DNA from: Acetomicrobium hydrogeniformans ATCC BAA-1850
GTDB taxonomy: Bacteria; Synergistota; Synergistia; Synergistales; Acetomicrobiaceae
Assembly: GCF_000160455.2 (NCBI RefSeq)
Contig: NZ_ACJX03000001.1
Location: 1,002,001 to 1,066,000 of the forward strand
Direction of reading: 5' to 3'
Length of the DNA stretch: 64,000 nt
Under the pieces are notes generated by a model. The model was not told where the DNA came from. It did not search any database and saw only the letters and a program-made list of their open reading frames with translations. Position numbers and translations under genes: made by a program. Positions within the stretch are counted from its first letter, which is position 1, and the number at the start of each line of letters is the position of its first letter. Of the stretch, positions 17,485 through 34,648 are shown piece by piece.

Positions 17485-17511
17485 CCGGAAAAAACAAAAG
17501 GAGTGGCAGGT

Positions 17512-17679
17512 TTGGCAAAGATACACCCTATAAATTTGAAAGGGCTTTGGGAGTTGGGTTTTGCTCTTGATGAACATACGATTAGCAGTCAATTCATAGG
17601 ATACGATGAATCAGGAAGAGAGCGGTTTCAGACGGAACGCAGCGTGATGGAGGATTTGCTCTATCGTTCACTCGGGTAG
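17512..17679 (+). pseudogene. Truncated phosphoribosyltransferase-like (ComF-type) gene, N-terminal 55 residues
   Basis: A TTG start at 17512 with AAAGGAG eight bases upstream opens a 55-residue frame. It contains LKGLWELGFALDEHTISSQF, GYDESGRERFQTERS and DLLYRS, which I recognise from memory as the conserved N-terminus of a ComF-type phosphoribosyltransferase family. The frame ends at a TAG where the family would continue with LKY and the catalytic domain. The frame directly beyond matches a P-type ATPase, so the gene appears cut by insertion or deletion at about 17,665-17,680. It follows the MFS gene by 27 bp. The family assignment is moderate and not checked by search. Confidence 0.45.
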
Positions 17680-19229: not shown

Positions 19230-19302
19230 TTTTTCGGACCGTCAGGTTTATTGCTTTCTGGTAGAATTGTCCGATACGTGAAATCCGGGAAAGGATATTG
19301 TC

Positions 19303-20418
19303 ATGGATCGGTCTAAAATGCTAAAACCCACGATTCTCTCGCTCTCGCTTCTGACAATTGTTTCCACCGGAGCAGTGGCTCCCGCACTCGGAGAGATCGG
19401 AAAATTTTTCGCGTCGTCGGACCACATGCTGGTCCAACTGGTGGCAGTCATGCATGCCGTCGCGCTTGTCCCGTCGTTGCTTCTGGCGGGTCGGGCCGCC
19501 GAGCGGTTTTCGGCAAAAAGGTTATTCTGGACGGGCTGGCGCTTTTTTCTGTCAGCGGCATCGCGAACAATATCTGGCTTTTGTTATTCTCCCGGCTTTT
19601 GATGGGCGTCGGCCTCGGCATGGTCATCCCTTTCTCGACGTCGCTGATTTCCGACCTCTATGAGAGAGAGGAGCGGACCAGGATGATGGGGCTTTCAAAC
19701 TCATTCAACATGCTGGGCGGCATGTTCGCCCTGGTGCTTTCAGGGCAGCTGGCTTTCTTTTCCTGGCGTCTGCCTTTTTTGCTCTATGCGTCGGGGGTTC
19801 CGGTCATGATGATGGTCGCCTTCTTTCTGCCCGGTGAGGTTGCAGGTGAGAAAGATCCCCAGCCTACGGGTGGAAGTCTCCCCCCGAAACGTATATTTCG
19901 TCGCTTTGGAGATGTTCCTTTTTTGTGTGCTCTTTTTTATTCTGACGCCGATTTTAGCCCTGCACATGAAAAACAACGCCCTTGGTGATGTCAGGATAGC
20001 CGGTATAGCTCTCTCCTGTTCCACAATCGGGGGTTTTGCATCAGGCTTTGCCCTGCCGGTGACGAAGAGGGTGTTCAAAAAATATCTCGTTCCCGTCATG
20101 CTGACGGCCATGAGTGCGGGTTTTCTCGTCTTGTCCTGGTTTCCCATATCCGTGGCTGTTTTTGCGGCGTTGCTTCTCATAGGTTTTGCGAACCGGTCCG
20201 TTTACCCGCTGTTTTTTCTCAAAGCCACGGAGCGCACCACGCCGGGAGAATCTGTGAAAGCTACAGCCTTTCTGAGCGCCATGATCTACCTTGGACAGTT
20301 CTCGGCCCCACCCTTCCAGCGGTTTGTCGGCGTCCTTTCCGGGCGGCCCGAGACAGGGTTCCTCTATCTTTTCGTCGCACTTGTGACCCTGACGGTGGCT
20401 TTGGCCCTGTTCGCCTGA
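19303..20418 (+). pseudogene. MFS transporter broken by two frameshifts
   Basis: The start at 19303 gives an MFS N-terminus (ILSLSLLTIVSTGAVAPALG, then LLAGRAAERFSAKRLF). Near 19,530 the sense moves to another frame (LDGLALFSVSGIANNIWLLL, then RLLMGVGLGMVIPFSTSLISD). Near 19,880, in a run of C, it shifts again to FVALEMFLFCVLFFILTP and continues through the last helices to the stop at 20418. Each shift fits a one-base indel. All twelve helices are otherwise recognisable, so decay is recent or the calls are sequencing errors. The many lesions in neighbours favour decay. Confidence 0.85.
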
Positions 20419-20487
20419 TCTTTCTTTCAGTTGAAAGAAGAGACAGTAACAGAGAGAAGATAGCCGGAACAAGAGAGGAATTTTTCA

Positions 20488-20769
20488 GTGAGCACTATAT
20501 TGATCATCCAGGTTCAAAAAAATGACGAAAGGGAAATTACCGAGGCCGTCAAAAGGGCCGTGGATCAGATCGAGGGGCTGGAAGACATTGTATCCCCCGG
20601 GGATCTTGTGCTGGTCAAACCGAATCTGGTGAGGATCCCGCCTTCCGATAACGGTACGGCCACGCGCTGGAAAGTGTCGAAAGCCGTGGCGGACCTTGTA
20701 ATTGAGTTTGGCGCCAGGGCGGTGAAAAGCCCGTGGAGATGGAAAGAAAACGGTAATTCGTCCGTTTAG
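20488..20769 (+). pseudogene. DUF362 family protein, N-terminal fragment
   Basis: A GTG start at 20488 (GAGAGGAA upstream) encodes the N-terminus of a DUF362 protein, with [23 protein letters not shown] as the recognisable family segment. Similarity stops after FGARAV (about 20,730), and the last 15 codons look like unrelated sequence before a TAG. Full-length family members are 300 residues or more, often with a ferredoxin domain. This is another cut gene in the degraded region. Confidence 0.65.
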
Positions 20770-20971
20770 CGAAGAAGGCGATGGCACTTCCAACGCCTGT
20801 GGCCAACCCGCCAGGGTCGTAATCCCAAGGGCGAAAAGAACTTCCGACACAGGGGGCGCCCCTTCCCTTGGAAAGATTCGAGTTTCCCTGTTTTTCGGCC
20901 ATTGTTGCAGTTTGCCCAAAACCAGTAACGTTTATTACCTAAAACTACGGGAGCGTCTGTCCTGAAATGAA
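20770..20971. other. Stretch without a recognisable gene
   Basis: About 200 bp between the DUF362 fragment and a terminator hairpin. Minus-strand frames contain protein-like patches (for example [20 protein letters not shown]) that I could not assign. They may be remnants of a deleted gene. Nothing here is supported as functional. Confidence 0.4.
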
Positions 20972-20995
20972 ACAGGCGGCCAATTGGCCGCCTGT
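20972..20995 (-). terminator. Perfect 24-bp palindrome acting as terminator
   Basis: ACAGGCGGCCAA pairs with TTGGCCGCCTGT with no loop bases other than the centre. Read on the minus strand it lies 21 bp past the stop of the ATC-hydrolase-like gene and is followed by TTTCATTT. On the plus strand A and T runs follow, so it may work in both directions. Confidence 0.75.
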
Positions 20996-21016
20996 AAAAA
21001 TTTTCCAGCTGCGTCC

Positions 21017-21574
21017 TCAGGGTTTGTCGAGGTTTTCGAAGTCCGTGTCGTCCTTGAGGAAGTTGGACTTTTCCTCCTCGGTGGTCCGGCGGTAGCAAAG
21101 GTCGCAATGTGGGTCCCCGTCGGGCATGCAGGTTTTGTGCACCAGCACCCAGTCAGGGTTGAAGGCCATTGATTTTGCGGAGTCGATGTAGCAGTAGATG
21201 CGGCCCAGTTCTTCTTCTCCCAACTCGCGCCAGAGTTTCCCCATTTCGCAACCTTTCAGCCGCCTGATCAGTCCTTCTCCGGTCTCGATTTTTTCCAGTT
21301 CTTCATAAAGGCCGAACTCGGGCAGGTCTTCCACGTAATTCTCCGGGGTATTCTCCAGGCCCTGGGCTTCAACCCTTTTACGGGCTGAAGCCCCGACCTG
21401 CTTCCCGTATGTCTTGATGGCCCGCATGGCGAGACGCTTGCCCTCTTCGGGGCCAAGTTCTTCCACCAGAGTTCGTGCGTAGGCGATATGGAGCATGGCA
21501 ATTCTTCGGCACGCCTTTGCGACCTGTTCCTTTGCCTTTTCCAGGGAAACAGTTTCCTGCTTTTCCGGTTCCAA
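21017..21574 (-). CDS. L-2-amino-thiazoline-4-carboxylate hydrolase family protein
   Basis: About 185 residues. Conserved features I associate with this family (PF14196) are the helical segment AMRAIKTYGKQVGASARKRV, the motif KLWRELGEEELGRIYCYID and AFNPDWVLVHKTCMPDGDPHC with a late Cys-rich segment (HCDLCYR). The named enzyme opens a thiazoline ring on the way to cysteine in some bacteria, but most family members are uncharacterised. TTG at 21574 has AAAGGAG about ten bases upstream; the open frame runs to 21604. It is intact although its neighbours are decayed, and it ends in a strong palindromic terminator. Confidence 0.65.
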   Translation of the reverse strand: MEPEKQETVSLEKAKEQVAKACRRIAMLHIAYARTLVEELGPEEGKRLAMRAIKTYGKQVGASARKRVEAQGLENTPENYVEDLPEFGLYEELEKIETGEGLIRRLKGCEMGKLWRELGEEELGRIYCYIDSAKSMAFNPDWVLVHKTCMPDGDPHCDLCYRRTTEEEKSNFLKDDTDFENLDKP

Positions 21575-21767
21575 AGCGGTCACTCTCCTTTGGCTGTTGA
21601 ACAAGTTATGTTATACTTATATACGCTCCAGCCAAGATTTACAATTCAGAATTTTCGCCTTACAGAAGGGGCACCTTGCGCCGCTCAGGGGAAGGGGGCA
21701 CGCGATGTTTTTACTGAGCTTTCGTGAGGGAGCGCTGTTCTGTATTCAAATAAAGGAGGTCGTTTCA

Positions 21768-22757
21768 GTGAAGAGACAAATTACAATGCTTTTTTCAGCG
21801 CTTTTGGTCGTCATGCTTTGCTCTGGGATTGTTTCGGCGACTCCGAAAAAAGTCGTTTTCTCAGATCTTTCCTGGGACAGCATCCAGTTTCACAACAGGG
21901 TAATGGCCTTTTTGATGGAAAAAGGCTGGGATTACGAAACGGATTTTCTTTTCTCTGAAGAAATGCCGGGCTACGTGGCCCTTGAAAGGGGAGACGTCCA
22001 CGTCGTTCTCGAGGTCTGGACTGAAGGGCAACTGGAGTGGTGGCAAGGAGCGACGAAAGCCGGCAAGGTTATAGATCTCGGGACGGTCTTTCCCAACGCC
22101 CGTTCAGGATGGTATGTCCCCTACTATGTTGCAGAAGGGGATCCGGAAAAAGGAATCCCGTCAGTCAGGAGCATAGAGGATATCAGAGAGCACTGGATGA
22201 TATTCAAGAATCCCGAGAACCCTGAAATGGGACGTTTTATCAACGCCCCGACAGGTTGGGCGGCTCACACGATCAACAAGGACAAGATCAAGGGATATGG
22301 TCTCGAGGACAAATTGGAGCCCTTTGATACGGGCTCGGCCACGGCATTGCGCACGGTAATTGTCACAGCCTATCAACGTCACGAGCCCATAGTCGCCTAT
22401 TACTGGGAGCCTACGCCGCTTCTTGGAGAGCTTGACATGGTTATGATCGAGGAACCTCCCTATGATCCGGAAATCTGGGAGACCACCCATGCCTGTGCCT
22501 CTCCCGCCTTTACCGTTGCAAAAGCCGTCAATCCGGCCTGGATACAGGCAAACGAAGAAGTCCGGGGCCTTCTTGAGCGTTATCATATGACCCTGGAAAA
22601 GACTAACGAGGCTTTGGCGTGGATGAAAAATAATGGTTACGATGTCGATAAAACAGCGATCTGGTTTTTGAAGGAAAATACCGACTTGTGGCATCAATGG
22701 GTCGAGGATGAAGAAAAGATCAAGCGGATTGAAAAAGCCCTGAAGACAGTGTCATAG
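21768..22757 (+). CDS. Glycine betaine/proline-type ABC transporter substrate-binding protein (OpuAC family)
   Basis: A 329-residue secreted or lipid-free binding protein. The GTG start at 21768 is set by AAAGGAGGT seven bases upstream and yields a clean signal peptide (ITMLFSALLVVMLCSGIVSA). The mature part shows OpuAC features: VFSDLSWDSIQFHNRV, VVLEVWTEGQLEWWQ with tryptophans typical of a quaternary-ammonium cage, and VAYYWEPTPLL. No permease or ATPase lies nearby, so it is an orphan left in the degraded island or works with a transporter elsewhere. The sequence itself shows no lesion. A strong terminator follows. Confidence 0.88.
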   Translation: MKRQITMLFSALLVVMLCSGIVSATPKKVVFSDLSWDSIQFHNRVMAFLMEKGWDYETDFLFSEEMPGYVALERGDVHVVLEVWTEGQLEWWQGATKAGKVIDLGTVFPNARSGWYVPYYVAEGDPEKGIPSVRSIEDIREHWMIFKNPENPEMGRFINAPTGWAAHTINKDKIKGYGLEDKLEPFDTGSATALRTVIVTAYQRHEPIVAYYWEPTPLLGELDMVMIEEPPYDPEIWETTHACASPAFTVAKAVNPAWIQANEEVRGLLERYHMTLEKTNEALAWMKNNGYDVDKTAIWFLKENTDLWHQWVEDEEKIKRIEKALKTVS

Positions 22758-22788
22758 ATCGAATGATTGCCGGAGCTTTGATATTTCG

Positions 22789-22815
22789 GGGGCCGCCTGG
22801 TGCGGCCCCTTTTTT
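22789..22815 (+). terminator. Rho-independent terminator
   Basis: GGGGCCGC (22789-22796) pairs with GCGGCCCC (22802-22809), followed by six T. It ends the OpuAC-family transcription unit 31 bp past its stop. Confidence 0.92.
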
Positions 22816-22819
22816 GGTT

Positions 22820-22839
22820 GTGTGCCCTGCAGGGCACAC
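22820..22839. repeat. Perfect 20-bp palindrome
   Basis: GTGTGCCCTGCAGGGCACAC is identical on both strands. It lies 4 bp after the T run of the preceding terminator. It could be an operator or a remnant of a mobile-element end; there is no T run after it. Confidence 0.6.
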
Positions 22840-22849
22840 CGACTTGGAG

Positions 22850-23047
22850 GTGAAAGTCACCAAGCAGTGCGACATGCTGGCTCTTATCATCGAGTGCGTC
22901 CTGGAACTGCGTAACAACCCGGCCATACCTGAGATGCGGACCACCGCCAACGACTACCTTGAGCGCCTCAGAAACTCCGAGTGGTTTTCCCTCCGCCAGC
23001 TCGCCCAAGAAATCGGCATGGAGTACCCGGAGGTGCTTCGGGGGTAG
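22850..23047 (+). CDS. Small hypothetical protein
   Basis: A 65-residue frame from a GTG at 22850 with GGAGG-like bases overlapping the start. A longer reading of the same frame would begin at 22763 but runs through the terminator. The protein is helical and charged, with SLRQLAQEIGMEYPEVLRG at the C-terminus that could be half of a helix-turn-helix. I recognise no family. Small proteins of this kind are common in mobile DNA. Confidence 0.4.
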   Translation: MKVTKQCDMLALIIECVLELRNNPAIPEMRTTANDYLERLRNSEWFSLRQLAQEIGMEYPEVLRG

Positions 23048-23082
23048 GTGGAGCAGGTTTTCCGGGCATTCTTGCTTGATAA

Positions 23083-23382
23083 GGCGCCAGTCACCGGCGA
23101 AAGAGGTCCCAAGTTTGTCCCAAGCCTGTCCCAAGCGACATCTGTATTTCCCTGCTTGAAATCGCGAGTAATCCTATATTCATTGAGATGTTGATGAAGG
23201 CCGCGGGACAGACAAACAGGCCCCGGTTCCGTAAGAGCATCTTGCGCCCACACCTGGAGGTCGGGATGATCGAAATGACAATCCCAGATAAACCTCGAAG
23301 CAGCAAACAGAAATACCGACTTACAAAAACAGGCCGCGAGTTACTGGAGAAACATCCCGAAGGAGAAAAAAGAAATGAATAA
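23083..23382 (+). pseudogene. C-terminal fragment of an AAA_4/Fic-type protein (winged helix)
   Basis: The frame carries FIEMLMKAAGQTNRPRFRKS, HLEVGMIEMTIPDKPRSSKQ and KYRLTKTGRELL. This is the end of the winged-helix tail found in AAA_4 (RecG-like/schlafen-like) and some Fic regulators (RFR-x-L-x-GLIEMTIPDKP-type motif). It is closed upstream by a TAA at about 23,080, so the main domain is gone. The upstream part contains three copies of GTCCCAAG at 11-bp spacing (23,106-23,139), a low-complexity linker common in this family. Such genes often sit beside type I restriction systems. Not expected to be functional. Confidence 0.5.
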
Positions 23383-23687
23383 AAACTCGCAACGACAATA
23401 CCAACAAGGGATATTCGATCCCGAAGAGGCAAGATCAAGCCCCTAAACTGCTGCAAAAAGTTCGTTTGAAACAGCTGGCAGCCGGCGGTCAAGAACCTCA
23501 TCAAGGATGCGCTGGAAGCAAATACGGGAGAGGAACGGAAAGAAAGGCTTCAGTAAAACAAACAGTCAACATGGCTCAACCGAGGCCGTAGCGGTGAGTA
23601 TTTAACCGGGTCCGAATTTACTACGGTTCTCGGACTTGACTCTTTCAAAATTCTTTTTATCCGTGAAATAGTAGAGCGATAAGTCTC

Positions 23688-23716
23688 TTGACATCAACTG
23701 TCACTAACTATAAATT
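23688..23716 (+). promoter_or_regulatory. Putative promoter
   Basis: TTGACA (23688-23693), 17 bp, TAAATT (23711-23716); a TATAAT follows at 23721. A+T-rich surroundings contrast with the flanking G+C-rich DNA. It points toward the restriction operon, but about 600 bp of decayed DNA lies between. Confidence 0.4.
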
Positions 23717-23846
23717 AAAGTATAATAATACTAATTCTTACTCGCGACACTGGAGGCGCTTCTGCAAGGAAATCATTTGCCTCTGCTTGTAAGAGATACA
23801 CTGCTATACGCAAGAAAGACGGAGGAGCTAGGTAACGGCGGAACCC

Positions 23847-23966
23847 TTGGTAGATCAAGTACTGCGAAAGATCGGCGAAGCTCGCAAACTTTATCACCGC
23901 CTAATTCTAATGGTGGGCCCGCCGGGCAGCGATCTCCGTTATCTCCAGCATAGCGGTAGGATTTGA
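23847..23966 (+). pseudogene. P-loop fragment resembling BREX protein BrxF
   Basis: A 39-residue frame with VDQVLRKIGEARKLYHRLIL followed by MVGPPGS. The segment KLYHRL-(hydrophobic)-VGPPGS resembles my memory of the N-terminal Walker A region of BrxF, a small P-loop protein of type 3 BREX systems. The expected GKT after GS is missing and unrelated sequence follows, so it is a remnant at best. The assignment is tentative. Confidence 0.35.
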
Positions 23967-24110
23967 ACGTCGGACGGATACAGTGTTTGCACGATTTCTT
24001 GTCTTGGTAAAGGCCTTGGCAAGTGAAATCAAGGCATAGTTCTACATTGCTTTGGACCAACTTCGCGAAATTCGGTAACATCTATCGGCCCCACCGTCAC
24101 AGGGAGGCGC

Positions 24111-24242
24111 ATGAGTAGCGAAGCAAATAGCGAAATGGCATTGCGCTATTATTGCACAATTGGCCAAGCGGCTGAAATAGGCCGGACAATAATCTGGAAC
24201 GGCCAGCTTATTCCCAGCTTATTGGCAAATCTGTCAGCATGA
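24111..24242 (+). CDS. Possible 43-residue small ORF before hsdM
   Basis: ATG at 24111 is preceded by AGGGAGG at a short spacing of about three bases. The product (MSSEANSEMALRYY, then GQAAEIGRTIIWNGQ) matches nothing I know. It lies directly upstream of the restriction operon and may be a leader peptide, a remnant or chance. Confidence 0.25.
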   Translation: MSSEANSEMALRYYCTIGQAAEIGRTIIWNGQLIPSLLANLSA

Positions 24243-24327
24243 GCTTGAAATGGCTGGAGCACAAAGTTGCAAGAAGCATGCGATGATGGTATTTTTAACT
24301 GCGAGGTACATGAGGAGAAGGAAAACA

Positions 24328-26355
24328 ATGGAAGTATCTCAACTGACCTGGATCACCAATTTCATTTGGGGCATCGCCGATGACGTGCTGCGCGACCTCT
24401 ACGTGCGTGGCAAGTACCGTGACGTCATTCTCCCGATGACCGTGATCCGCCGATTGGATGCGGTATTGGAGCCCACCAAGCGGGCCGTGCTTGACTTGAA
24501 AGCTTCGCTCGACAAAGCTGGGATCGTACACCAGGACGCTGCTCTGCGACAGGCGGCCGGCCAGGCGTTTTACAATACCTCCCCCTTCACGCTGCGCGAC
24601 CTCAAGGCTCGCGCGAGCCGCCAGCAACTGGAGGCGGATTTTCGCGCCTACCTCGATGGCTTTTCGCCTAACGTGCAGGAAATCATCGACAACTTCGAAT
24701 TCCGCAACCAAATCCCCCGCCTGACTAAAGCTGATGCCTTGGGCACGCTCATCGAGAAGTTCCTCGACCCCTCGATCAACTTAAGCCCCTATCCCGTCCT
24801 CGACAGCGCCGGCAGCGTGCGCCTACCTGGCCTCGACAATCACGCCATGGGCACCATCTTCGAGGAGCTCGTCCGCCGCTTCAATGAGGAAAATAACGAA
24901 GAGGCCGGCGAGCACTGGACGCCACGCGACGCCGTGAGGTTGATGGCCCGCCTCATTTTTGAGCCGATCGCCGACCAGATCGAATCCGGCACCTACCTGC
25001 TCTACGACGGCGCCTGTGGTACCGGCGGGATGCTAACGGTGGCCGAGGAAACCCTGTTGCAACTGGCGAAAGAACGCGGCAAACAGGTCTCGATGCATCT
25101 TTTCGGTCAGGAGATCAACGCCGAGACCTACGCCATCTGTAAGTCCGACCTTTTGCTCAAGGGCGAGGGCGAAGCCGCCGACAACATCGTCGGCGGGCCG
25201 GAGCATTCGACCCTATCCAACGACGCCTTCCCGGGGCGTGAGTTCGATTTCATGCTCTCCAACCCGCCCTACGGTAAGAGTTGGAAGAGCGACCTGGAAC
25301 GCATGGGCGGCAAAAGCGGCATCAAGGATCCGCGCTTTGTCGTGCAGCACCGGGGAGAGGAGCTGTCGCTCATCACCCGCTCGAGCGACGGCCAGATGCT
25401 GTTCCTGGTGAACATGCTCTCCAAGATGAAGCACGACACTCCGCTCGGCAGTCGCATCGCCGAGGTGCACAACGGCTCGTCGCTGTTTACGGGGGACGCC
25501 GGCCAGGGCGAGAGCAATATCCGCCGCTGGATCATCGAAAACGACTGGCTGGAAGCCATCGTCGCCCTGCCGCTGAACATGTTCTACAACACCGGCATTG
25601 CCACCTACGTTTGGGTGCTCACGAACAGAAAGCCCGAGCACCGCAAAGGCCGCGTGCAGCTCATCGATGCCACGCAGTGGTACAAGCCCCTGCGCAAGAA
25701 CCTGGGAAAGAAGAACTGCGAGCTGTCCGAAGAGGACATCCGTCGCGTCCTCGACACCTTCCTCAAATTTGAGGAGACCGAGCAGTCCAAGATCTTCCCC
25801 AACGCGGCCTTCGGTTACTGGAAGGTGACGGTGGAGCGCCCCTTGCGCTTGAAAGGTATCGATCCCGAGCGCACCTACACTCCCAAGGAGATCAAGGCGC
25901 TTCGGGAAACGGCCGAGCGGGCGGAGGACGCACCGCCGGTGATCAAAAAGATTCACAAGCCTGGCACCGCGCCCGACCCGCTGCGCGGACTCTTCGAGAT
26001 GGTCATTGCCGGTAAGCCACGGGTGGTGGAGTATGAACCCGACAAGGAGCTTCGCGACAGCGAGCAGATTCCGTTCCTTGAGTGCCAGGCCTGCCATCAG
26101 CCCGGCTACCTACCAAGCCCGGAAGACCAGCGCACGGCGATCGAGGCTTTCCTGCGCCGCGAGGTGTTGCCTTACGTGCCGGATGCCTGGTACGACCCGG
26201 CCAGCGTCAAGGTGGGTTACGAGATCAACTTCAACCGCTACTTTTACAAGCCCAAGGCCCTGCGCCCGCTGGAAGAGATCCGAGCCGACCTGCTGACGGT
26301 GGAGAGAGAGGCCGAGGGGTTGTTGGCGGAGATTTTGGGAGGTCAGACACGATGA
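24328..26355 (+). CDS. hsdM: Type I restriction-modification DNA methyltransferase subunit HsdM
   Basis: A 675-residue N6-adenine methyltransferase. The N-terminal helical domain (VILPMTVIRRLDAVLEPTK) is followed by the catalytic domain with AdoMet motif I (DGACGTGGM) and catalytic motif IV (NPPYGKSW). The C-terminal part is longer than in EcoKI-type HsdM and includes a C-x2-C pair (ECQACHQPG) and YEINFNRYFYKP. ATG at 24328 was chosen because GAGGAGAAGG lies upstream; the open frame extends to 24250. It is the first gene of a five-gene operon and its stop overlaps the SIR2 gene by ATGA. It modifies host DNA at the sites chosen by HsdS. Base composition is clearly more G+C-rich than the native regions. 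Confidence 0.95.
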   Translation: MEVSQLTWITNFIWGIADDVLRDLYVRGKYRDVILPMTVIRRLDAVLEPTKRAVLDLKASLDKAGIVHQDAALRQAAGQAFYNTSPFTLRDLKARASRQQLEADFRAYLDGFSPNVQEIIDNFEFRNQIPRLTKADALGTLIEKFLDPSINLSPYPVLDSAGSVRLPGLDNHAMGTIFEELVRRFNEENNEEAGEHWTPRDAVRLMARLIFEPIADQIESGTYLLYDGACGTGGMLTVAEETLLQLAKERGKQVSMHLFGQEINAETYAICKSDLLLKGEGEAADNIVGGPEHSTLSNDAFPGREFDFMLSNPPYGKSWKSDLERMGGKSGIKDPRFVVQHRGEELSLITRSSDGQMLFLVNMLSKMKHDTPLGSRIAEVHNGSSLFTGDAGQGESNIRRWIIENDWLEAIVALPLNMFYNTGIATYVWVLTNRKPEHRKGRVQLIDATQWYKPLRKNLGKKNCELSEEDIRRVLDTFLKFEETEQSKIFPNAAFGYWKVTVERPLRLKGIDPERTYTPKEIKALRETAERAEDAPPVIKKIHKPGTAPDPLRGLFEMVIAGKPRVVEYEPDKELRDSEQIPFLECQACHQPGYLPSPEDQRTAIEAFLRREVLPYVPDAWYDPASVKVGYEINFNRYFYKPKALRPLEEIRADLLTVEREAEGLLAEILGGQTR

Positions 26356-27821
26356 GGCTTGAAAATGGACAACAGGTCATCAAGACGCGAGACGACCCTA
26401 TCCCACTGACTTTGGTGCCAGGAGATTCATCTAAGAAGGCTAATGATCGTTTTAAACTGAAAAAGGGCGTGAGTTGCTCTTGGGCAAAAGCCGACGAGGA
26501 ATTTGGTCCTGAGAAACTACGGGAACGCATAGAGCCGTGGCTGACGGCACTTGTACAGTCCGAGCACTTGTCATTGCTCGTAGGGTCAGGTCTTACCCAC
26601 GCGGTTCATAAATTGGCAACGAACAAAGCGCTTCGCGGGATGGGAACTATCAATATTGAGACGTTTATGAATGAGATCGAGGCCGAGGCGAACCGTAGCG
26701 CCAAAGCAGCAGGACGGGATACCGCAAATTTCGAAGATCAATTGCGAGTCGCTAATGAACTACTGCGTGGCCTGGAGATTATCGCATCCACAAAAACCAA
26801 GGATGCACCAGAGCGCAAGCAGATCGATGGCTTGCGACAAGAGTTAAGCGAGACCCTTAAGTCCTTCGCCGCGTCGATCCTGGAAGGTGAACGAAACCTG
26901 GCTTTGGCTTCTGCACCGGATGGCAACGAAAACGAGCGAGAGAACTGTGCGCAGAGCGAGAAAGTTAAGAAGTGCAACCGACGTGTGGCTGCATTCAACT
27001 ACCTCGTTAGCTTCCTCATGAGTTTCGCAAGCCGATCCGGCACACGTGACCGCCTTCATCTCTTCACAACCAACTATGACCGCTATATCGAAGCGGGTGC
27101 GGATGTCGCGGGATTGCGCCTGATCGACCGTTTTGTCGGCGCGCTGGCACCAGTGTTCCGCGCCTCCCGGCTTGATGTGGATCTGCACTACAACCCCCCC
27201 GGAATCCGGGGCGAGCCCCGCTACCTCGAAGGTGTTGCGCGTTTCACAAAGCTCCACGGGTCGATTGATTGGGTTGATTGTCATAAGGCAATTCTTCGAT
27301 TCGGGCTTCCCTTCGGCGCAGAAGAAATAAATCCCTACCTTCGCGCACCGGGTTTGGATGGGGCCGACGCCATGAAGCTCATGATCTACCCGAACGCTGC
27401 CAAAGACCGCGAAACAGCCGAATACCCCTATGTGGAGCTATTTCGTGACTTTGCTGTCGCCATCTGCCGCCCTAACAGTACGCTGGTAACGTATGGGTAC
27501 AGTTTCGGCGACGAGCACATCAACCGCGTGATCGAGGATATGCTGACGATTCCATCAGCACACCTGGTGATCATCTCGTACAGCGATCCCCTCGGTCGGA
27601 TCATGCGAACGTACGAGAGGTTGGGCCGAGGTGCTCAAATTACTCTCCTGGTTGGGGATCACTTGGGGGACTTGAAGGCGCTGGTGGACCATTACCTCCC
27701 CAAACCGGCCATCGATCGCACGACTTTCCGAATGGCGGAGCTGCTGAGAAAACGTTTTGGTGCGCAAGCGCCGCAAGATCAGGACGGCGGTACTACTGAT
27801 ATCGGAGGACAGTCCCTATGA
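26352..27821 (+). CDS. SIR2-domain defence protein (likely NADase), partner of HerA
   Basis: A 489-residue protein with the SIR2_2-type fold hallmarks in order: LLVGSG at about 75-80 (NAD-binding Gly-rich loop), FTTNYD at 238-243, KLHGSIDW at 300-307 (with the catalytic-type His302), and GYSFGDEHIN at 382-391. These are the motifs of bacterial antiphage SIR2 proteins that deplete NAD. The first 60 residues and a charged helical insertion (about 150-215) are not recognised. Start and stop both make ATGA overlaps, with hsdM and the HerA gene, so translation is coupled. Known SIR2-HerA systems assemble the two proteins and degrade NAD on phage infection. Here the pair is nested in a restriction operon. 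NADase activity is inferred. Confidence 0.88.
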   Translation: MRLENGQQVIKTRDDPIPLTLVPGDSSKKANDRFKLKKGVSCSWAKADEEFGPEKLRERIEPWLTALVQSEHLSLLVGSGLTHAVHKLATNKALRGMGTINIETFMNEIEAEANRSAKAAGRDTANFEDQLRVANELLRGLEIIASTKTKDAPERKQIDGLRQELSETLKSFAASILEGERNLALASAPDGNENERENCAQSEKVKKCNRRVAAFNYLVSFLMSFASRSGTRDRLHLFTTNYDRYIEAGADVAGLRLIDRFVGALAPVFRASRLDVDLHYNPPGIRGEPRYLEGVARFTKLHGSIDWVDCHKAILRFGLPFGAEEINPYLRAPGLDGADAMKLMIYPNAAKDRETAEYPYVELFRDFAVAICRPNSTLVTYGYSFGDEHINRVIEDMLTIPSAHLVIISYSDPLGRIMRTYERLGRGAQITLLVGDHLGDLKALVDHYLPKPAIDRTTFRMAELLRKRFGAQAPQDQDGGTTDIGGQSL

Positions 27822-29929
27822 GCCAAACTCCCTTCGAGTTAGCCGGAAGTTTTCGAGTCGGTACGGTGGAGTTCGTTGCTCCAGACGAGATCAGAGTCAG
27901 TCTCGACATCGAGGCACCGGAGTCCGTCGCCCTGAACACTGGCGGACCAAGACCCTTTCCAAGGGTGAATGGCTACCTTCTCATCCCAGTTGACGAAGCA
28001 TTTCTGGTCGGGCAGGTGGAGTGGGTCACGGTCGAACCAGCGCCCTTTCCGAAGCGACGCGGCCTGCAGGACTTCGGGTTGGTGGATCTGCCATATCCGC
28101 TGCGCCGCCTCCGTCTCAACCCGATTGGCACTCTGCGTGCAAAGCCACGCCCCGGCGAATTTGTATTCCGCCGAGGCGCTGATGCGTTGCCTTCGATCGG
28201 TGCCCCTGTCCTCCTCCCCACAGATTTGCAACTGCGGTCAATCGTTGAGTCTGGCGAAAAGAAGCGTGTGTGCATCGGTACAAGCCCTGTGGCGAACGAT
28301 GCAAAAGTATATGTCGATCCGGATCGGCTATTTGGCCGCCACCTCGCCGTACTCGGGAATACAGGCAGCGGCAAATCGTGCTCTGTCGCCGGGCTGATTC
28401 GCTGGAGCATTGAGGCAGCCCAGCGGGAGTGTTCAGGTCGTCCGAACGCCCGTTTTATCATTCTCGACCCTAATGGCGAGTATTCACGGGCGTTTCCGAA
28501 GGACGACGCCACCATTAGCGCGCGCATTTTCAAAGTAAACGCTGGAGAGGGTGAAGAACCGCTCAAGGTGCCTTTGTGGTTCTGGAACAGCGCGGAGTGG
28601 TGCTCGTTCACACAAGCGAGCGCGAAGACTCAGCGGCCTTTGCTCCGGCGCGCTCTGCGAGAGGTTAAGGCGGGCAGGACCGATGTCGCAGCACCGAGCG
28701 AGGAGGAGAAGAAACTTCACCTACGGAGGCGTCTCTCCTCGACGCTGATCACGCTTAGGCGTGACCTACGGTCAAACGCAGTAAAGACCGAGGCAACAAA
28801 GTTCGGGTTTCAGATAGAGGCCATCGTCGCTGACCTTGAGAAGTGGATACCGGACTATCCTGACATACCGCTGACAGCTATCCGCGACGCGGCGAACAGC
28901 GCGCTTGATTCAAGACGCAAAGACGGGGTCGACAAGCAATCAAAGAAGTCGTACGTCTACTTCGTCGCATTCACCGAAGACGAGGTGCAGAGTATCATCT
29001 CGTGCGTAGAGGCCGCATTGACCTATTTGGGCGGAGCTGTCTATCAAGAGGGTCCAGATGAAGACGTTCCGCTGGCATTCAACGGGACGGACTTAGCGGA
29101 CCACTTGGAGATCCTCGCTGAGCAGGAGAACGCCAGCCAGTACCTCGATTTCCTTGTTGCTCGTATCCGAACGTTTCTCGCAGACCCAAGAATGAAGCCG
29201 GTAATCGCTGATACTGAGGGCGTCACGCTCAAACAGTGGCTTGACAATTATATCGGCGGAAACAATACTGAAAGCCACTGCGTTTCCGTCATCGATCTTT
29301 CCCTGGTACCCACCGACGTAGTGCATGTCGTTACGGCCGTAATCGCCCGTATGGTTTTCGAAGCACTGCAACGCTATGTCACGCTCAATCGAGTTGCCCT
29401 TCCAACGGTCCTGGTAATGGAGGAAGCGCACACGTTCATCAAACGATATAACGAAGATTTCGACTTCCAGGATGCGGCAGCCGTCTGTTGCCAGGTCTTC
29501 GAACGCATCGCACGGGAAGGTCGGAAGTTCGGCCTCGGCCTCGTTCTTTCCTCCCAACGCCCATCTGAACTCTCCCCGACGGTCTTATCGCAATGCAATA
29601 CCTTCTTGCTTCATCGCATCAGCAACGACCGCGATCAGGATTTGGTTCATCGTCTCGTGCCGGACAACCTTCGAGGGCTGTTGCGCGAACTTCCATCGCT
29701 GCCGTCCCAACACGCAATTCTATTGGGATGGGCGTCAGAACTGCCGGTTCTAGTCAAGATGCACGACCTGCCTGAAACCCAGCGGCCGCGCTCCGACGAC
29801 CCGGACTTCTGGGATGTGTGGACTGGCAAGAATGAAAAAGGCGAACCTGTAACGCGTAAGATAGACTGGAAGAAGGTTGCAGAGGCCTGGCAGCAAGGTT
29901 CAACTGAAAGAAGTGAGGAAGAGTCATGA
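27818..29929 (+). CDS. HerA-like ATPase (DUF87), partner of SIR2
   Basis: A 703-residue FtsK/HerA-superfamily ATPase. An N-terminal beta-rich HAS-barrel-like domain (about 1-120) precedes the core. Walker A is LGNTGSGKS (179-187), the HerA signature FIILDPNGEYSRAF follows, Walker B is VLVMEEAH (531-538), and the sensor segment GLVLSSQRPSELSPTVLSQC comes after. The protein should form a hexamer that moves along or senses DNA. As the immediate partner of a SIR2 protein (ATGA overlap) it fits the antiphage SIR2-HerA pair rather than the archaeal repair HerA-NurA. It is also coupled by ATGA to hsdS. Confidence 0.9.
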   Translation: MSQTPFELAGSFRVGTVEFVAPDEIRVSLDIEAPESVALNTGGPRPFPRVNGYLLIPVDEAFLVGQVEWVTVEPAPFPKRRGLQDFGLVDLPYPLRRLRLNPIGTLRAKPRPGEFVFRRGADALPSIGAPVLLPTDLQLRSIVESGEKKRVCIGTSPVANDAKVYVDPDRLFGRHLAVLGNTGSGKSCSVAGLIRWSIEAAQRECSGRPNARFIILDPNGEYSRAFPKDDATISARIFKVNAGEGEEPLKVPLWFWNSAEWCSFTQASAKTQRPLLRRALREVKAGRTDVAAPSEEEKKLHLRRRLSSTLITLRRDLRSNAVKTEATKFGFQIEAIVADLEKWIPDYPDIPLTAIRDAANSALDSRRKDGVDKQSKKSYVYFVAFTEDEVQSIISCVEAALTYLGGAVYQEGPDEDVPLAFNGTDLADHLEILAEQENASQYLDFLVARIRTFLADPRMKPVIADTEGVTLKQWLDNYIGGNNTESHCVSVIDLSLVPTDVVHVVTAVIARMVFEALQRYVTLNRVALPTVLVMEEAHTFIKRYNEDFDFQDAAAVCCQVFERIAREGRKFGLGLVLSSQRPSELSPTVLSQCNTFLLHRISNDRDQDLVHRLVPDNLRGLLRELPSLPSQHAILLGWASELPVLVKMHDLPETQRPRSDDPDFWDVWTGKNEKGEPVTRKIDWKKVAEAWQQGSTERSEEES

Positions 29930-31395
29930 TCACCAACCTCAAACCCTACCCCGCCTACAAAGACTCCGGCGTGCCGTGGCTCGGCCATGTGCCGGAGCAT
30001 TGGGAGGTACGGCGAGGCAAGACTCTTTTTCGCTGCATAGACGTGCGATCCCAGACCGGACAGGAAGAGTTACTTACGGTTTCATCTGAGCGTGGGGTTG
30101 TTCCCAGGCGCTCAGCGAATGTAACGATGTTCAAAGCGGAATCCTACGTAGGCTACAAGCTCTGCTGGCCAGATGATCTTGTGATTAACAGCCTGTGGGC
30201 TTGGGCTCGCGGCCTTGGCGTGTCGCCCTATCACGGCATAGTTAGTTCCGCTTATGGCGTGTACCGCTTGCGAAACAGACAGCAAGACAATCCCCGTTTC
30301 ATTCATCAACTTGTACGTTCAACACCATTCCAATGGGAATTGCTGGTCCGCTCCAAAGGGATATGGGTCTCACGCTTGCAACTTACGGACGATGCATTCC
30401 TGGGTGCTTCCTTCCCCATGCCTCCTTCGAATGAACAAACTGCCATCGTCCGCTTCCTCGATTACATCGACCGGCGGATTTGGCGATACATCCGCGCCAA
30501 GCAGAAACTGATCAAACTGCTGGAAGAGTACAAGCAGGCCCTCATCCACCAGGCCGTCACCGGCCAAATCGACGTCCGCACGGGCAAGCCTTACCCTGCC
30601 TACAAAGACTCCGGTGTGGAATGGCTGGGTGAGGTGCCGGAGCATTGGGAAATTAGGCGACTGGGTAGTTCAGTACGTGGTTGTGTGAATGGCGTTTGGG
30701 GTTCAGAACCCAACGGAAAAGATGATCTGCCGTGCGTACGTGTCGCGGATTTCGATAGATCTCGACTTCGCGTGCACCTTGACAAGCCAACGATGCGAGC
30801 AATCAGTTCCAGCGATCGAGTCCGTCGCCTTTTGGAGCCAGGTGATCTGCTTTTAGAAAAGTCCGGAGGGGGTGATCTACAACCTGTCGGAAGGGTGGTC
30901 TTGTATGATCATCCGACTGTAGCAGTCACCTCGAACTTCATCGCTCGCATGCCAGTCGAAAATGGATACGACTCGATTTACCTAACGTATCTGCACGCAG
31001 CGTTGTATTCGATCGAGCTCAACGTTCGTTCAATCAAGCAAACCACGGGGATTCAAAACCTGGATTCGAGGACCTACCTTAGTGAACTGGTCGCTTTCCC
31101 GCCTCTCCCCGAACAAACTGCCATCGTCGAATACCTCGACACCCAGACGGCAAAGATCGACGCTGCCATCTCCGCCGCTCGCAGCGAAATTGATCTTCTG
31201 CGCGAATACCGCACCCGCTTGATCGCCGATGTGGTAACCGGTAAAGTGGATGTGCGCGAGGTCGCAGCACGGTTGCCGGAGGAGCCGCCTGAGGAGGAGG
31301 CTGAATCGATGGACGCCGACGTGATGGCTAAAGATGAGACGACAGATGAAGAAGTCGGCACCGAGACCGTTGAAGAAGAGGAGGTTGAACCATGA
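29926..31395 (+). CDS. hsdS: Type I restriction-modification specificity subunit HsdS
   Basis: A 489-residue protein with two target-recognition domains (about 15-165 and 230-390). They are separated by conserved coiled-coil spacers (RIWRYIRAKQKLIKLLEEYK and AAISAARSEIDLLREYRTRL). Each half opens with nearly the same motif, KPYPAYKDSGV followed by WLG-x-VPEHWE, showing internal duplication. The LIHQAVTGQIDVRTG and LIADVVTGKVDVRE segments close each half. It defines the bipartite DNA target of the HsdM/HsdR complex; the sequence recognised cannot be read out. The acidic C-terminal tail (EEPPEEEAESM to the end) is unusual. Start and stop overlap neighbours by ATGA. Confidence 0.95.
   Translation: MITNLKPYPAYKDSGVPWLGHVPEHWEVRRGKTLFRCIDVRSQTGQEELLTVSSERGVVPRRSANVTMFKAESYVGYKLCWPDDLVINSLWAWARGLGVSPYHGIVSSAYGVYRLRNRQQDNPRFIHQLVRSTPFQWELLVRSKGIWVSRLQLTDDAFLGASFPMPPSNEQTAIVRFLDYIDRRIWRYIRAKQKLIKLLEEYKQALIHQAVTGQIDVRTGKPYPAYKDSGVEWLGEVPEHWEIRRLGSSVRGCVNGVWGSEPNGKDDLPCVRVADFDRSRLRVHLDKPTMRAISSSDRVRRLLEPGDLLLEKSGGGDLQPVGRVVLYDHPTVAVTSNFIARMPVENGYDSIYLTYLHAALYSIELNVRSIKQTTGIQNLDSRTYLSELVAFPPLPEQTAIVEYLDTQTAKIDAAISAARSEIDLLREYRTRLIADVVTGKVDVREVAARLPEEPPEEEAESMDADVMAKDETTDEEVGTETVEEEEVEP
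29941..30015 (+). repeat. Internal direct repeat of hsdS (second copy 30586-30660)
   Basis: The two 75-bp segments, 645 bp apart, share long identical runs (for example GCCTACAAAGACTCCGG and GTGCCGGAGCATTGGGA). Such repeats in hsdS allow domain exchange and unequal recombination of specificity domains. Confidence 0.85.
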
Positions 31396-34394
31396 AGCCC
31401 ACCGACACCAGCGAAGCCGGGCTTGAGAGCCTAATCTGCCGGGCTCTGACCGGCAGTGAATGTGTAACCCGACCTGCCGGCACTCCGACATTCGTAGCCG
31501 AGCTGCCGGCACCTTATGGCGGTGTGGGTTGGCTGCCCGGCGACCCGGCCGATTACGACCGCGAGTACTGCGTCGATCTGGTTCAGCTCGCGGCGTTTCT
31601 GCGCACCACACAGCCCGAGGTCGCCGAAGCGCTCGACCTGGATAACGACAGCCCCACGCGGCGCAAGTTTCTGACGCGTCTTCAGGGCGAAGTGAGCAAG
31701 CGCGGGGTGGTGGACGTGCTGAGAGGCGGCATCCAGCACGGGCCTTACCGCATCGAGCTCTTCTACGGCACTCCTTCCCCCGGAAACGAGCAGGCGCGGG
31801 CGCTCTATGAGCAGAACCGCTTTACCGTCACGCGCCAGCTGCGCTACAGCCGCGACGAGTTGCAACGGGCGCTGGACCTGGTGCTCTTTATCAACGGCCT
31901 GCCGGTTTTCACTTTCGAGCTCAAAAACCGCCTCACCAAACAGACGGTGCACGGCGCCATCGAGCAGTACAAACGTAACCGCAACCCGCGCGAGAAACTA
32001 TTTGAATTGGGCCGCTGCGTGGCGCACTTCGCCATGGACGAAAACGAGGTGTGGTTCTGCACCCACCTTCAGGGCAAGGCGTCGTGGTTTCTGCCTTTCA
32101 ACAAAGGCTACAACGACGGCGCGGGCAATCCTCCCAACCCGCAGGGGCTCAAGATTGATTACCTGTGGCGGGAGATACTCACCCGCGAGAGTCTGACCGA
32201 CATCCTCGAAAACTACGCTCAACTCATAGAGGAGAAAGACCTCAAGACCGGCAAGAAACGGCGACGGCAGATCTTCCCCCGCTATCACCAGCTCGACGTG
32301 GTGCGAAAACTCTTGGCGGACGCGGCGGCGCACGGCGTGGGCCGCCGCTACCTTATCCAACATTCTGCCGGCAGCGGCAAGTCCAACTCCATCGCCTGGC
32401 TGGCCCACCAGCTGATCGGTCTCGCGAAGGACGGAAGACCTGTTTTCGATTCCATTATCGTGGTGACCGACCGTCGTATTCTGGACCAGCAGATCCGGGA
32501 TACGGTCAAGCAGTTTGCCCAGGTGAGTGCCACGGTAGGGCACGCCGAACATTCTGGCGACTTGCGGCGGTTTATAGAGAGCGGCAAGAAGATCATTATC
32601 ACGACACTGCAAAAGTTCCCGTTCATCCTCGACGAAATCGGCAACGAGCACCGCGGGCGACGTTTTGCCATCATTATCGACGAGGCGCATTCAAGCCAGG
32701 GCGGCCGCACCTCAGCCAAGATGAGCATGGCCTTGTCGGAGGCCGGTGCAGAGGAGGAAGACGAAACCTTCGAAGATCAGATCAACCGGCTAATGGAGGC
32801 CAGGAAGCTTTTGCCGAACGCCAGCTACTTCGCCTTCACCGCCACCCCTAAGAACAAAACGTTGGAGATGTTTGGTGAACCCGAGCCGCAGCCCGACGGA
32901 ACGGTTAAACACAGGCCGTTTCATAGCTATACCATGAAACAGGCAATCCAGGAAGGGTTCATCCTGGATGTGTTGGCCAACTACACACCGGTCAAGAGCT
33001 ACTATAGGCTTATCAAGACCATCGAAGACGACCCTGAATTTGACGTCAAGAAGGCGCAAAAGAAGCTGCGCCGCTTCGTGGAGGGGCATGAGCACGCCAT
33101 CCGGCTCAAGGCCGAGATCATGGTGGATCACTTTCATGAGCAGGTGATCGCCAAGGGCAAGATCGGCGGCCAGGCGCGGGCCATGGTGGTGACCGGCAGC
33201 ATCGAGCGAGCTATTCAGTACTTCCATGCCTTCAGGGCGTACCTTGCCGAGCACAAGAGCCCTTACCGTGCCATTGTCGCTTTCTCGGGCGAGCACGAGT
33301 ATGGCGGTCAACAGGTCACCGAGGCCAGCCTTAACGGTTTTCCCTCGAACCAGATCGCCGACAAGATCCGGGAGGAGCCGTATCGGTTTTTGATCTGCGC
33401 CGATAAGTTCCAGACCGGCTATGACGAGCCGCTCCTGCACACAATGTACGTGGACAAGGTACTCTCCGGGGTCAAGGCGGTACAGACACTTTCGCGACTC
33501 AACCGCGCCCACCCACAGAAGCACGACACCTTCGTCCTCGATTTCGTCAACGACCCGGAGACGATCCGAAAGGCCTTCGAGCCCTACTACCGGACGACCA
33601 TCCTCGCCGACGAGACCGACCCGAACAAGCTACATGACCTCAAAGCGGACCTCGACGCTTATCAGGTATACGCTCCCAAGCAGGTAGACGATCTTGTTCG
33701 GCTCTACCTGAGCGGGGCCGACCGCGACCAGCTCGACCCGATCCTCGACGCCTGCGTCGCCACCTACATGGAGCATCTCGACGAGGACGGTCAGGTCGAC
33801 TTCAAGGGCAAAACCAAGGCGTTTCTGCGAACCTATAACTTTTTGTCTTCGATCCTGCCCTACACCAACGCCGAGTGGGAGAAGCTATCGATCTTTCTCA
33901 ACTTTCTGGTACCCAAGCTGCCGGCGCCGAAAGAGGAAGACCTCTCAAAGGGCATCCTCGAGGCGATCGACATGGACAGCTACCGGGTCGAAAAGCAGAC
34001 GACCATGAGGATCGCGCTTTCCGATGCGGATGCCGAGATCGAACCGGTGCCCACGGCGGGCGGCGGACACAAACCCGAACCGGAGCTCGATCGTCTCTCG
34101 AACATCATCAAGGCTTTCAATGATCAGTTCGGCAACATCCCCTGGACCGACGCCGACCGGGTGCGCAAACTGATCACCGAGGAGATCCCTGCACGCGTAG
34201 CGGCCGACACCGCCTACCAGAATGCCCGCAAGTACTCTGACAAACAGAACGCGCGCATCGAGCACGACAAGGCGCTGGCCCGCGTCATGACGGGGTTGCT
34301 TCAGGATGATACGGAGCTCTTTAAGCAGTTCAGCGACAACGAAGGTTTTCGACGCTGGCTAACCGATACGGTGTTTGCTTTGACCTTTGAATAA
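31392..34394 (+). CDS. hsdR: Type I restriction endonuclease/translocase subunit HsdR
   Basis: A 1000-residue protein. The N-terminal nuclease domain has the PD-(D/E)XK-type core around LPVFTFELKNR, followed by AIEQYKRNRNPREKLF. The superfamily 2 motor follows: Walker A HSAGSGKSN, DEAH box (IIIDEAHSSQGG), motif III FAFTATPKNKTLEMFG, and motif VI-type QTLSRLNRAHP. The C-terminal helical domain binds the methyltransferase core. It cuts unmodified DNA after translocation. It is the last gene of the operon, starting with an ATGA overlap on hsdS. All motifs look intact, so the restriction system should be active. Confidence 0.95.
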   Translation: MKPTDTSEAGLESLICRALTGSECVTRPAGTPTFVAELPAPYGGVGWLPGDPADYDREYCVDLVQLAAFLRTTQPEVAEALDLDNDSPTRRKFLTRLQGEVSKRGVVDVLRGGIQHGPYRIELFYGTPSPGNEQARALYEQNRFTVTRQLRYSRDELQRALDLVLFINGLPVFTFELKNRLTKQTVHGAIEQYKRNRNPREKLFELGRCVAHFAMDENEVWFCTHLQGKASWFLPFNKGYNDGAGNPPNPQGLKIDYLWREILTRESLTDILENYAQLIEEKDLKTGKKRRRQIFPRYHQLDVVRKLLADAAAHGVGRRYLIQHSAGSGKSNSIAWLAHQLIGLAKDGRPVFDSIIVVTDRRILDQQIRDTVKQFAQVSATVGHAEHSGDLRRFIESGKKIIITTLQKFPFILDEIGNEHRGRRFAIIIDEAHSSQGGRTSAKMSMALSEAGAEEEDETFEDQINRLMEARKLLPNASYFAFTATPKNKTLEMFGEPEPQPDGTVKHRPFHSYTMKQAIQEGFILDVLANYTPVKSYYRLIKTIEDDPEFDVKKAQKKLRRFVEGHEHAIRLKAEIMVDHFHEQVIAKGKIGGQARAMVVTGSIERAIQYFHAFRAYLAEHKSPYRAIVAFSGEHEYGGQQVTEASLNGFPSNQIADKIREEPYRFLICADKFQTGYDEPLLHTMYVDKVLSGVKAVQTLSRLNRAHPQKHDTFVLDFVNDPETIRKAFEPYYRTTILADETDPNKLHDLKADLDAYQVYAPKQVDDLVRLYLSGADRDQLDPILDACVATYMEHLDEDGQVDFKGKTKAFLRTYNFLSSILPYTNAEWEKLSIFLNFLVPKLPAPKEEDLSKGILEAIDMDSYRVEKQTTMRIALSDADAEIEPVPTAGGGHKPEPELDRLSNIIKAFNDQFGNIPWTDADRVRKLITEEIPARVAADTAYQNARKYSDKQNARIEHDKALARVMTGLLQDDTELFKQFSDNEGFRRWLTDTVFALTFE

Positions 34395-34648
34395 GACGAT
34401 GCCGACAGTCCGGCACATCTTGAGCCATATTTCCCTGGTTCATCTGGTTTCGGTTTCCGGGCGGCTCGATGTGCTGCGACATGGCCTTGACCAGAACTTG
34501 ATCATGCTCCGTAAGGGAAGCCTGCCAGGCGCGAAAGAAGGCGAATCATGAAGCTCATGGCGACATTGGACCTGTGGTACGGTTGTGTATCCCGACACCC
34601 ATTAGTAAATGACTTTCAGGCGGGCAGACAAGTCAGGGCAGTAAAGGT
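34395..34648. other. Gap at the right end of the defence island
   Basis: About 250 bp between hsdR and the native ABC operon. It contains two tiny overlapping plus-strand frames, 34399-34551 (50 residues, MPTVRHILSHISLVHL...) and one beginning near 34549. I recognise neither. No terminator-like hairpin with a T run was found after hsdR. The island boundary probably lies here. Confidence 0.4.

Follow-up and report, generated by a model that had tools for sequence, protein, structure and literature searches.

A SIR2-HerA gene pair as probable exchangeable cargo between hsdM and hsdS of a type I restriction-modification operon

The question raised by this locus was whether a SIR2-HerA pair enclosed by type I restriction-modification (R-M) genes belongs to a fixed five-gene machine or occupies a site that other genes may also fill. 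The window, the whole stretch of DNA that was analysed, comprised 64,000 nucleotides of Acetomicrobium hydrogeniformans ATCC BAA-1850. At 24328–34394, hsdM, SIR2, HerA, hsdS and hsdR were arranged in this order on the + strand, and the ORF coordinates gave a 4-nt ATGA overlap at each of the four junctions, in agreement with an earlier note on this DNA, which had described five genes in one direction with four such overlaps. The features were as follows.

24328..26355, + strand: hsdM, type I methylase subunit (N6_Mtase and HsdM_N; PADLOC MTase_I; NPPY312)
26352..27821, + strand: gene of the SIR2-like NADase family, SIR2-HerA (Nezha/GAO_19) type (SIR2_2; His302 and TTNYD)
27818..29929, + strand: HerA-type ATPase (DUF87/HerA; Walker A Lys186; fold matches)
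28673..29257, + strand: HerA residues 286–480, exchanged hypervariable, mostly helical insertion in the ATPase (sliding identity, pair counts and structure model)
29926..31395, + strand: hsdS, specificity subunit (Methylase_S; PADLOC Specificity_I)
31392..34394, + strand: hsdR, restriction subunit (HSDR_N, SWI2/SNF2 and T1R_D3; PADLOC REase_I; Walker A and DEAH)
26343..31096, no strand: tract unlike the same-species locus L102 (blastn; conserved islands at 29925–30014 and 30433–30650)
17475..34636, no strand: genomic island of ~17.2 kb with the operon inside (absent at the syntenic site in genomes G013, G011 and G014; GC 55%)

The type I genes hsdM, hsdS and hsdR were all present and intact, with the NPPY312 motif in HsdM and the HSAGSGKS324 (Walker A) and DEAH430 motifs in HsdR. 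An alternative in-frame ATG for hsdM was located at 24250. Among the NCBIfam models, the TIGR00497 and TIGR00348 matches of the type I proteins were below the equivalog or subfamily cut-offs.

The SIR2 protein contained the motifs GSG78, TTNYD239, LHGS301 (including His302) and GYSFGDEHIN382, of which TTNYD239 and LHGS301 were invariant across a 34-sequence alignment. It had the Asn/His catalytic motifs of the Nezha/GAO_19 pair, and the adjacent HerA ATPase had both the Walker A (GNTGSGKS180, with Lys186) and Walker B (VLVMEEAH531) motifs of that pair. Every checked motif in SIR2, HerA, HsdM and HsdR was present, including those named in the earlier note. The best PADLOC families were PDLC04079 for SIR2 (8e-158) and PDLC04098 for HerA (2e-258). 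The NCBIfam equivalog cut-offs of the anti-phage SIR2 and HerA models were not reached (117.6 vs 500 bits and 228.3 vs 850 bits, respectively), and the two proteins were therefore assigned to a divergent subfamily of the pair. By sequence, the nearest solved relatives were the SIR2 of 8j4u/8su9 (1e-19) and the HerA of 9c1m, 8wiv, 8ziq, 8xau and 8j4u. The best fold matches of the HerA model were SIR2/HerA and DUF4297-HerA complexes, with an E value of 4e-19 to a SIR2/HerA complex at low TM-scores and a model pTM of 0.55. The structure models were of moderate quality (SIR2, pLDDT 70 and pTM 0.72; HerA, pLDDT 68.5 and the pTM given above), the SIR2 model was poorly resolved in the catalytic region, and the models were used for the helical insertion of HerA only. 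NADase activity of the SIR2 protein is predicted.

At the N-terminus of SIR2, residues 1–50 were conserved and included a K-x-R-D-D motif; this segment was nearly invariant in the 34 SIR2 sequences and fell outside the stretch aligned to the solved SIR2-HerA structures.

A HerA search of genome contigs gave 178 relatives, and the best 80 of the 178 were kept. Thirteen of these 80 had hsdM upstream and hsdS downstream of SIR2-HerA on the same strand (L002–L006, L008–L010, L013, L014, L016, L019 and L024), which ruled out that the gene order is unique to this genome, the outcome that the earlier note had set against its own proposal. Partial nests were found at contig ends in L026 and L007, and two further nests, L103 and L141, came from an hsdM search. 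The hsdM gene lay directly before SIR2 in 10 of the 13 loci, with intervening genes in L006, L010 and L013. The strict five-gene order, with nothing extra, was found in L002, L003, L009, L016 and also L141, while additional genes stood between hsdS and hsdR in L004, L005, L014, L019 and L103. The order thus recurred in distant phyla, the record titles naming Bacillota, Pseudomonadota, Deltaproteobacteria, Bipolaricaulota, Cyanobacteriota, Latescibacterota, Chloroflexota, Acidobacteriota and Gemmatimonadota.

The overlaps were scored in 16 nested loci, including the window. A 4-nt overlap was found at 10 of the 13 scorable hsdM-SIR2 junctions, 14 of 16 SIR2-HerA junctions, 13 of 16 HerA-hsdS junctions and 6 of the 7 junctions at which hsdS and hsdR were adjacent; L002 accounted for two of the exceptions, because genes there were split into two reading frames. 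The nest was therefore recurrent and translationally coupled, and distinct from a loose defence-island neighbourhood, as had been proposed. Overlaps conserved so strictly in distant loci would also fit a need for tight stoichiometry, and in this respect they stand against an autonomous pair. Across the same 16 loci, the pairwise identities of HsdM tracked those of SIR2 (Spearman 0.68) and HsdR (Spearman 0.76). A tight co-evolution of HsdM and HerA was rejected at a Spearman value of 0.28 over 120 pairs, a figure depressed by inclusion of the exchanged domain of HerA described below.

The contents of the hsdM-hsdS interval were surveyed by an hsdM-first search of the window's phylum (185 genomes, 16 of them with hsdM at E ≤ 1e-50), the phyla of G187 (398), G196 (398), G195 (301) and G191 (244), and plasmids. 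The slot was counted as filled when the interval exceeded 250 nt. Counts were restricted to hsdM-first loci with hsdS on the contig; L104, L108, L110, L114, L130, L146, L171 and L172 were excluded, hsdS being absent on the fetched stretch. The set included L132–L134, from genomes reached through HerA, and the annotated plasmid loci L157–L160, taken from the best 60 of 815 plasmid records. The slot was filled in all 11 loci at ≥85% HsdM identity, in 7 of 14 at 70–85%, in 10 of 31 at 50–70% and in none of 4 below 50%.

The cargo of the eleven nearest loci was SIR2-HerA (L103 and L141), RloC-type (L102 and L148), Ymh-HEPN (PD-Lambda-3_B; L138 and L143), Ppl (L139), GmrSD (L156 and L157), a Hachiman-like helicase (PDC-M23B; L142), or GmrSD, helicase and Ppl-like pieces together (L140), the class of L138, L140 and L148 being taken partly from clustering with a scanned relative. 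More distant loci added AbiD, a STAND-like TPR protein, a ThsB-type TIR, a macro domain, an AAA protein with subtilase, HNH and a PIN pair. Among the genes scanned, the slot contents were mostly defence families, a label that covers L164 and L166 in part, with L124 assigned to no class and L168 left out. One position within a single system was thus occupied by different defence genes, the pattern of embedded defence cargo (guilt-by-embedding), and through it the slot may let unknown genes be nominated as defences. When cargo labels were mapped on a 54-row HsdM tree, at least 27 changes were needed, the least possible being 17, and one set of 17 HsdM with starred support of 97 carried seven cargo labels; the short branches within this set were weakly resolved, and the starred branches forced only 3 SIR2-HerA changes. 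Between hsdS and hsdR lay a further slot, which held DarT/macro, RhuM-Fic, Schlafen-AlbA or helicase genes.

DarT and macro-domain (DarTG-type) genes lay between hsdS and hsdR in L157 and L158, on Meiothermus and Synechocystis plasmids.

The closest comparison was provided by G015, a genome of the same species. When its locus, L102, was aligned with the window by blastn, the two were 99.0% identical as far as position 26342, which lies 13 nt short of the hsdM end, and 96.4% identical from 31097 onward. Where the window has SIR2-HerA, L102 had one 743-codon gene of the RloC anticodon-nuclease type. Its product was an AAA_13 protein (5e-126), also matched by PADLOC PDC-S06 and PrrC, with an intact Walker A motif, a zinc-hook CXXC (CEFC) and R-X3-E..H near the C-terminus, in agreement with the description of RloC in the available text of PMC2610378. 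The recognition regions of hsdS also differed between the two loci, except for short conserved islands. Cargo and specificity therefore differed together. Two suicide-type effectors were thus found in one slot of the same species, between the same flanks and with near-identical hsdM and hsdR, which amounts to a natural swap experiment.

These results did not sustain the fixed stoichiometry suggested in the earlier note, or an obligate joint machine. Other defence genes filled the slot in close relatives, including the same species; further genes were inserted between hsdS and hsdR in the five loci given above; and relatives of the pair also occurred without any R-M gene, as well as inside BREX and type III-like operons. 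A fixed five-gene unit was rejected on the variable slot content, and the overall interpretation of that note was partly supported. On the gene arrangements compared here, SIR2-HerA is best described as the occupant of an exchangeable slot. The cargo is exchangeable and probably autonomous, and it is somewhat probable that the type I operon serves as a platform from which interchangeable second-line defences are expressed, with SIR2-HerA acting by its own probable NAD-depleting route.

According to this cargo-slot model, cargo in this lineage of type I R-M systems would be carried at the hsdM-hsdS junction. In a first layer, HsdM, HsdS and HsdR would methylate self DNA and cut unmethylated DNA; in a second, an exchangeable effector would be made by coupled translation from the same operon, so that R-M and cargo would be expressed jointly. 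With the cargo of the window, a HerA-SIR2 complex would be expected to form and to drain NAD+ once a phage has passed restriction. Triggering may be largely autonomous, through a variable helix bundle of HerA, and cargo may spread by recombination in the conserved ends of hsdM and hsdS.

Published precedents point both ways on autonomy. In V. cholerae, SIR2-HerA alone protects, with the NADase site and HerA both required (available parts of PMC11559045). TgvAB of V. cholerae VPI-2 resembles the window in being a two-gene defence inside a five-gene type I operon, and differs in its GmrSD-type cargo; it protects alone and independently of HsdR activity (PMC11411939, in its available parts). According to the same text, TgvAB alone gave 10–100 times less protection than the whole cluster against several phages; embedding can therefore matter functionally. 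PrrC, by contrast, is silenced by its host enzyme. In the EcoprrI-PrrC system, a type Ic R-M system with an anticodon nuclease, a suicidal effector proposed as a second line is encoded within the hsd operon, EcoprrI keeps PrrC inactive, and T4 Stp activates it (PMC2610378, PMC3874165 and PMC3710099, as far as their available text goes).

An effector gene was likewise embedded in the hsd operon of the window, and the pair could act as a guard or back-up, the R-M complex silencing the effector until it is freed by anti-restriction proteins or because the complex is lost; in that case, effectors responding to one R-M state would share the slot as their socket. By the PrrC analogy, DNA sensing could be shared with HsdS, or restriction failure could trigger SIR2-HerA, as the earlier note had suggested. 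In broad kind, the RloC-type and HEPN occupants resemble PrrC, and coupled translation was conserved. However, GmrSD, a Hachiman-like helicase, TIR and STAND-TPR are too dissimilar for a single obvious docking interface, and SIR2-HerA relatives are also found apart from R-M genes. A guard is regarded as possible but rather unlikely. Unlike PrrC, the effector of the window is predicted to be a two-gene SIR2-HerA complex of NADase type, in the hsdM-hsdS slot. Since near-isogenic natural operons carry different cargo, the guard-or-carrier question raised by PrrC is directly testable by cargo exchange.

The operon was located on a genomic island that was present in both the window genome and G015 and, in three of five congeneric genomes, absent from the syntenic site. 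G013, G011 and G014 were joined at the empty site, the flanks of G013 being 97% identical, and G012 gave a 136-nt match only. The GC content was 55% in the island and 48–49% in its surroundings. This distribution would suit a mere linkage, in which the R-M operon is mobile and self-retaining, the site within it tolerates recombination, cargo gains from being carried, and coordination amounts to shared transcription alone; the wide differences among cargo classes and the existence of cargo-free hsdM relatives at 70–78% identity point the same way. Yet 11 of 11 near relatives carried cargo, mostly of defence families among those scanned, and reading frames and overlaps were kept, which hitchhiking free of selection does not predict. 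Linkage alone is considered improbable.

The island was located at the 3' end of a gene, with a short GCAGT repeat at both ends. Broken hsdM genes with internal stops were found in L104 (5387–9955; genome G172) and L110 (G171), the former with an hsdR remnant, and G172 carried an intact M-SIR2-HerA-S-R operon elsewhere.

A second level of exchange was found within HerA. When the HerA of the window was compared with that of L141, L103, L016 or L019, the sliding identity was 9–34% at residues ~295–445, whereas the flanks were mostly 70–100% identical. Among 372 HerA pairs with a core at least 85% identical, 104 fell below 35% over residues 310–420; core and domain identities were 88% and 25% for the window and L141, 91% and 21% for L016 and L004, and 89% and 23% for L003 and L016. 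The domain classes did not follow the branching of the core tree, and the exchanged domain occurred in nested and free-standing pairs alike. In the structure model, the region was mostly helical, with pLDDT values mostly of 70–93.

In a first HerA tree, the nested HerA fell into two separated groups, as if the type I nest had arisen twice, from two HerA lineages. This split was caused by the exchanged domain. When residues 286–480 were removed, 18 nested rows fell within one clade of 23 rows with starred support of 99, and the SIR2 tree agreed, type-I-nested sequences making up 17 of the 22 rows of the clade. The idea that type I operons had captured SIR2-HerA twice, independently, was rejected on the sliding identity and the domain-free tree, and a double origin is extremely improbable.

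In DUF4297-HerA, an insertion subdomain shuts the supposed DNA-entry side of the ring (available text of PMC11291478). If a residue-level match to that insertion is assumed, the variable helix bundle of HerA is likely the trigger-reading part, and the exchange of this bundle would point to the place at which phage triggers are sensed.

That type I operons can enclose defence genes is already established. DarTG2 in the type I system of EPEC (RptR/RRDM island) is likewise a defence module within an hsd operon, but lies between hsdS and hsdR, a site termed a potential hotspot by its authors (PMC12255303, available parts); several of the loci surveyed here had DarT and/or macro-domain genes at that site. 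The RloC/RloF inserts in Campylobacter jejuni type I loci are also variable restriction-linked ORFs; in the available text of PMC2610378, PMC4619093 and PMC11411939, they are not SIR2-HerA and no swap between the same flanks is described. The SIR2-HerA pair itself matches the published Nezha/GAO_19 systems in its two genes, SIR2 catalytic motifs, HerA ATPase and fold matches to solved complexes. The published examples, as given in the available parts of the sources, are free-standing in a defence island (PMC11559045) or lie between or downstream of R-M systems (PMC11514479), while the pair of the window is nested between hsdM and hsdS with coupled frames.

Relative to known embedding, the additions are SIR2-HerA as cargo, the natural swap and the exchanged helix-bundle domain in HerA. 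In the literature searched, mostly without subscription papers, no description was found of SIR2-HerA in the hsdM-hsdS slot, for which a prior report is possible, or of a same-flank cargo swap; searches aimed at other subjects gave no description of the exchanged HerA domain. Embedded defences are reportedly the subject of a preprint by Payne et al. (2024).

SIR2-HerA was found in type I, BREX, type III-like and DrmMI contexts, and modification systems could be its partners. It is conceivable, though unlikely, that the joint of methylase and specificity parts is a general socket, at which the complex senses what state the modification enzyme, or the DNA held by it, is in, and that HerA domain exchange tunes the trigger. 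If so, the sites would be the type I hsdM/hsdS junction, the junction of the N- and C-terminal parts of split pglX in BREX and the mod end of type III-like systems, and the exchange of the HerA helix bundle would parallel that of the hsdS recognition domains.

Relatives of the pair were present in 193 plasmid records, mostly at under 60% identity; in the one record read, from E. coli, the pair adjoined Tn3 genes, without an R-M gene.

In L012, L023 and L027, SIR2-HerA followed a res-mod pair (type III-like) and preceded a gene for a UvrD-type helicase, and L015 and L020 had part of the mod-SIR2-HerA-UvrD arrangement. In L033, the pair was located downstream of DrmMI. In five BREX loci, L048, L052, L055, L063 (6511–14155) and L064, SIR2-HerA lay between two ORFs that were halves of pglX, with BrxC upstream and PglZ downstream; L080 showed the right half of this arrangement. 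When these ORFs were compared with the intact PglX of L054, the N-terminal part extended to residue 606–610 and the C-terminal part began at 584–615, and the break occurred at about the same place, near residue 606/613, in all five complete cases.
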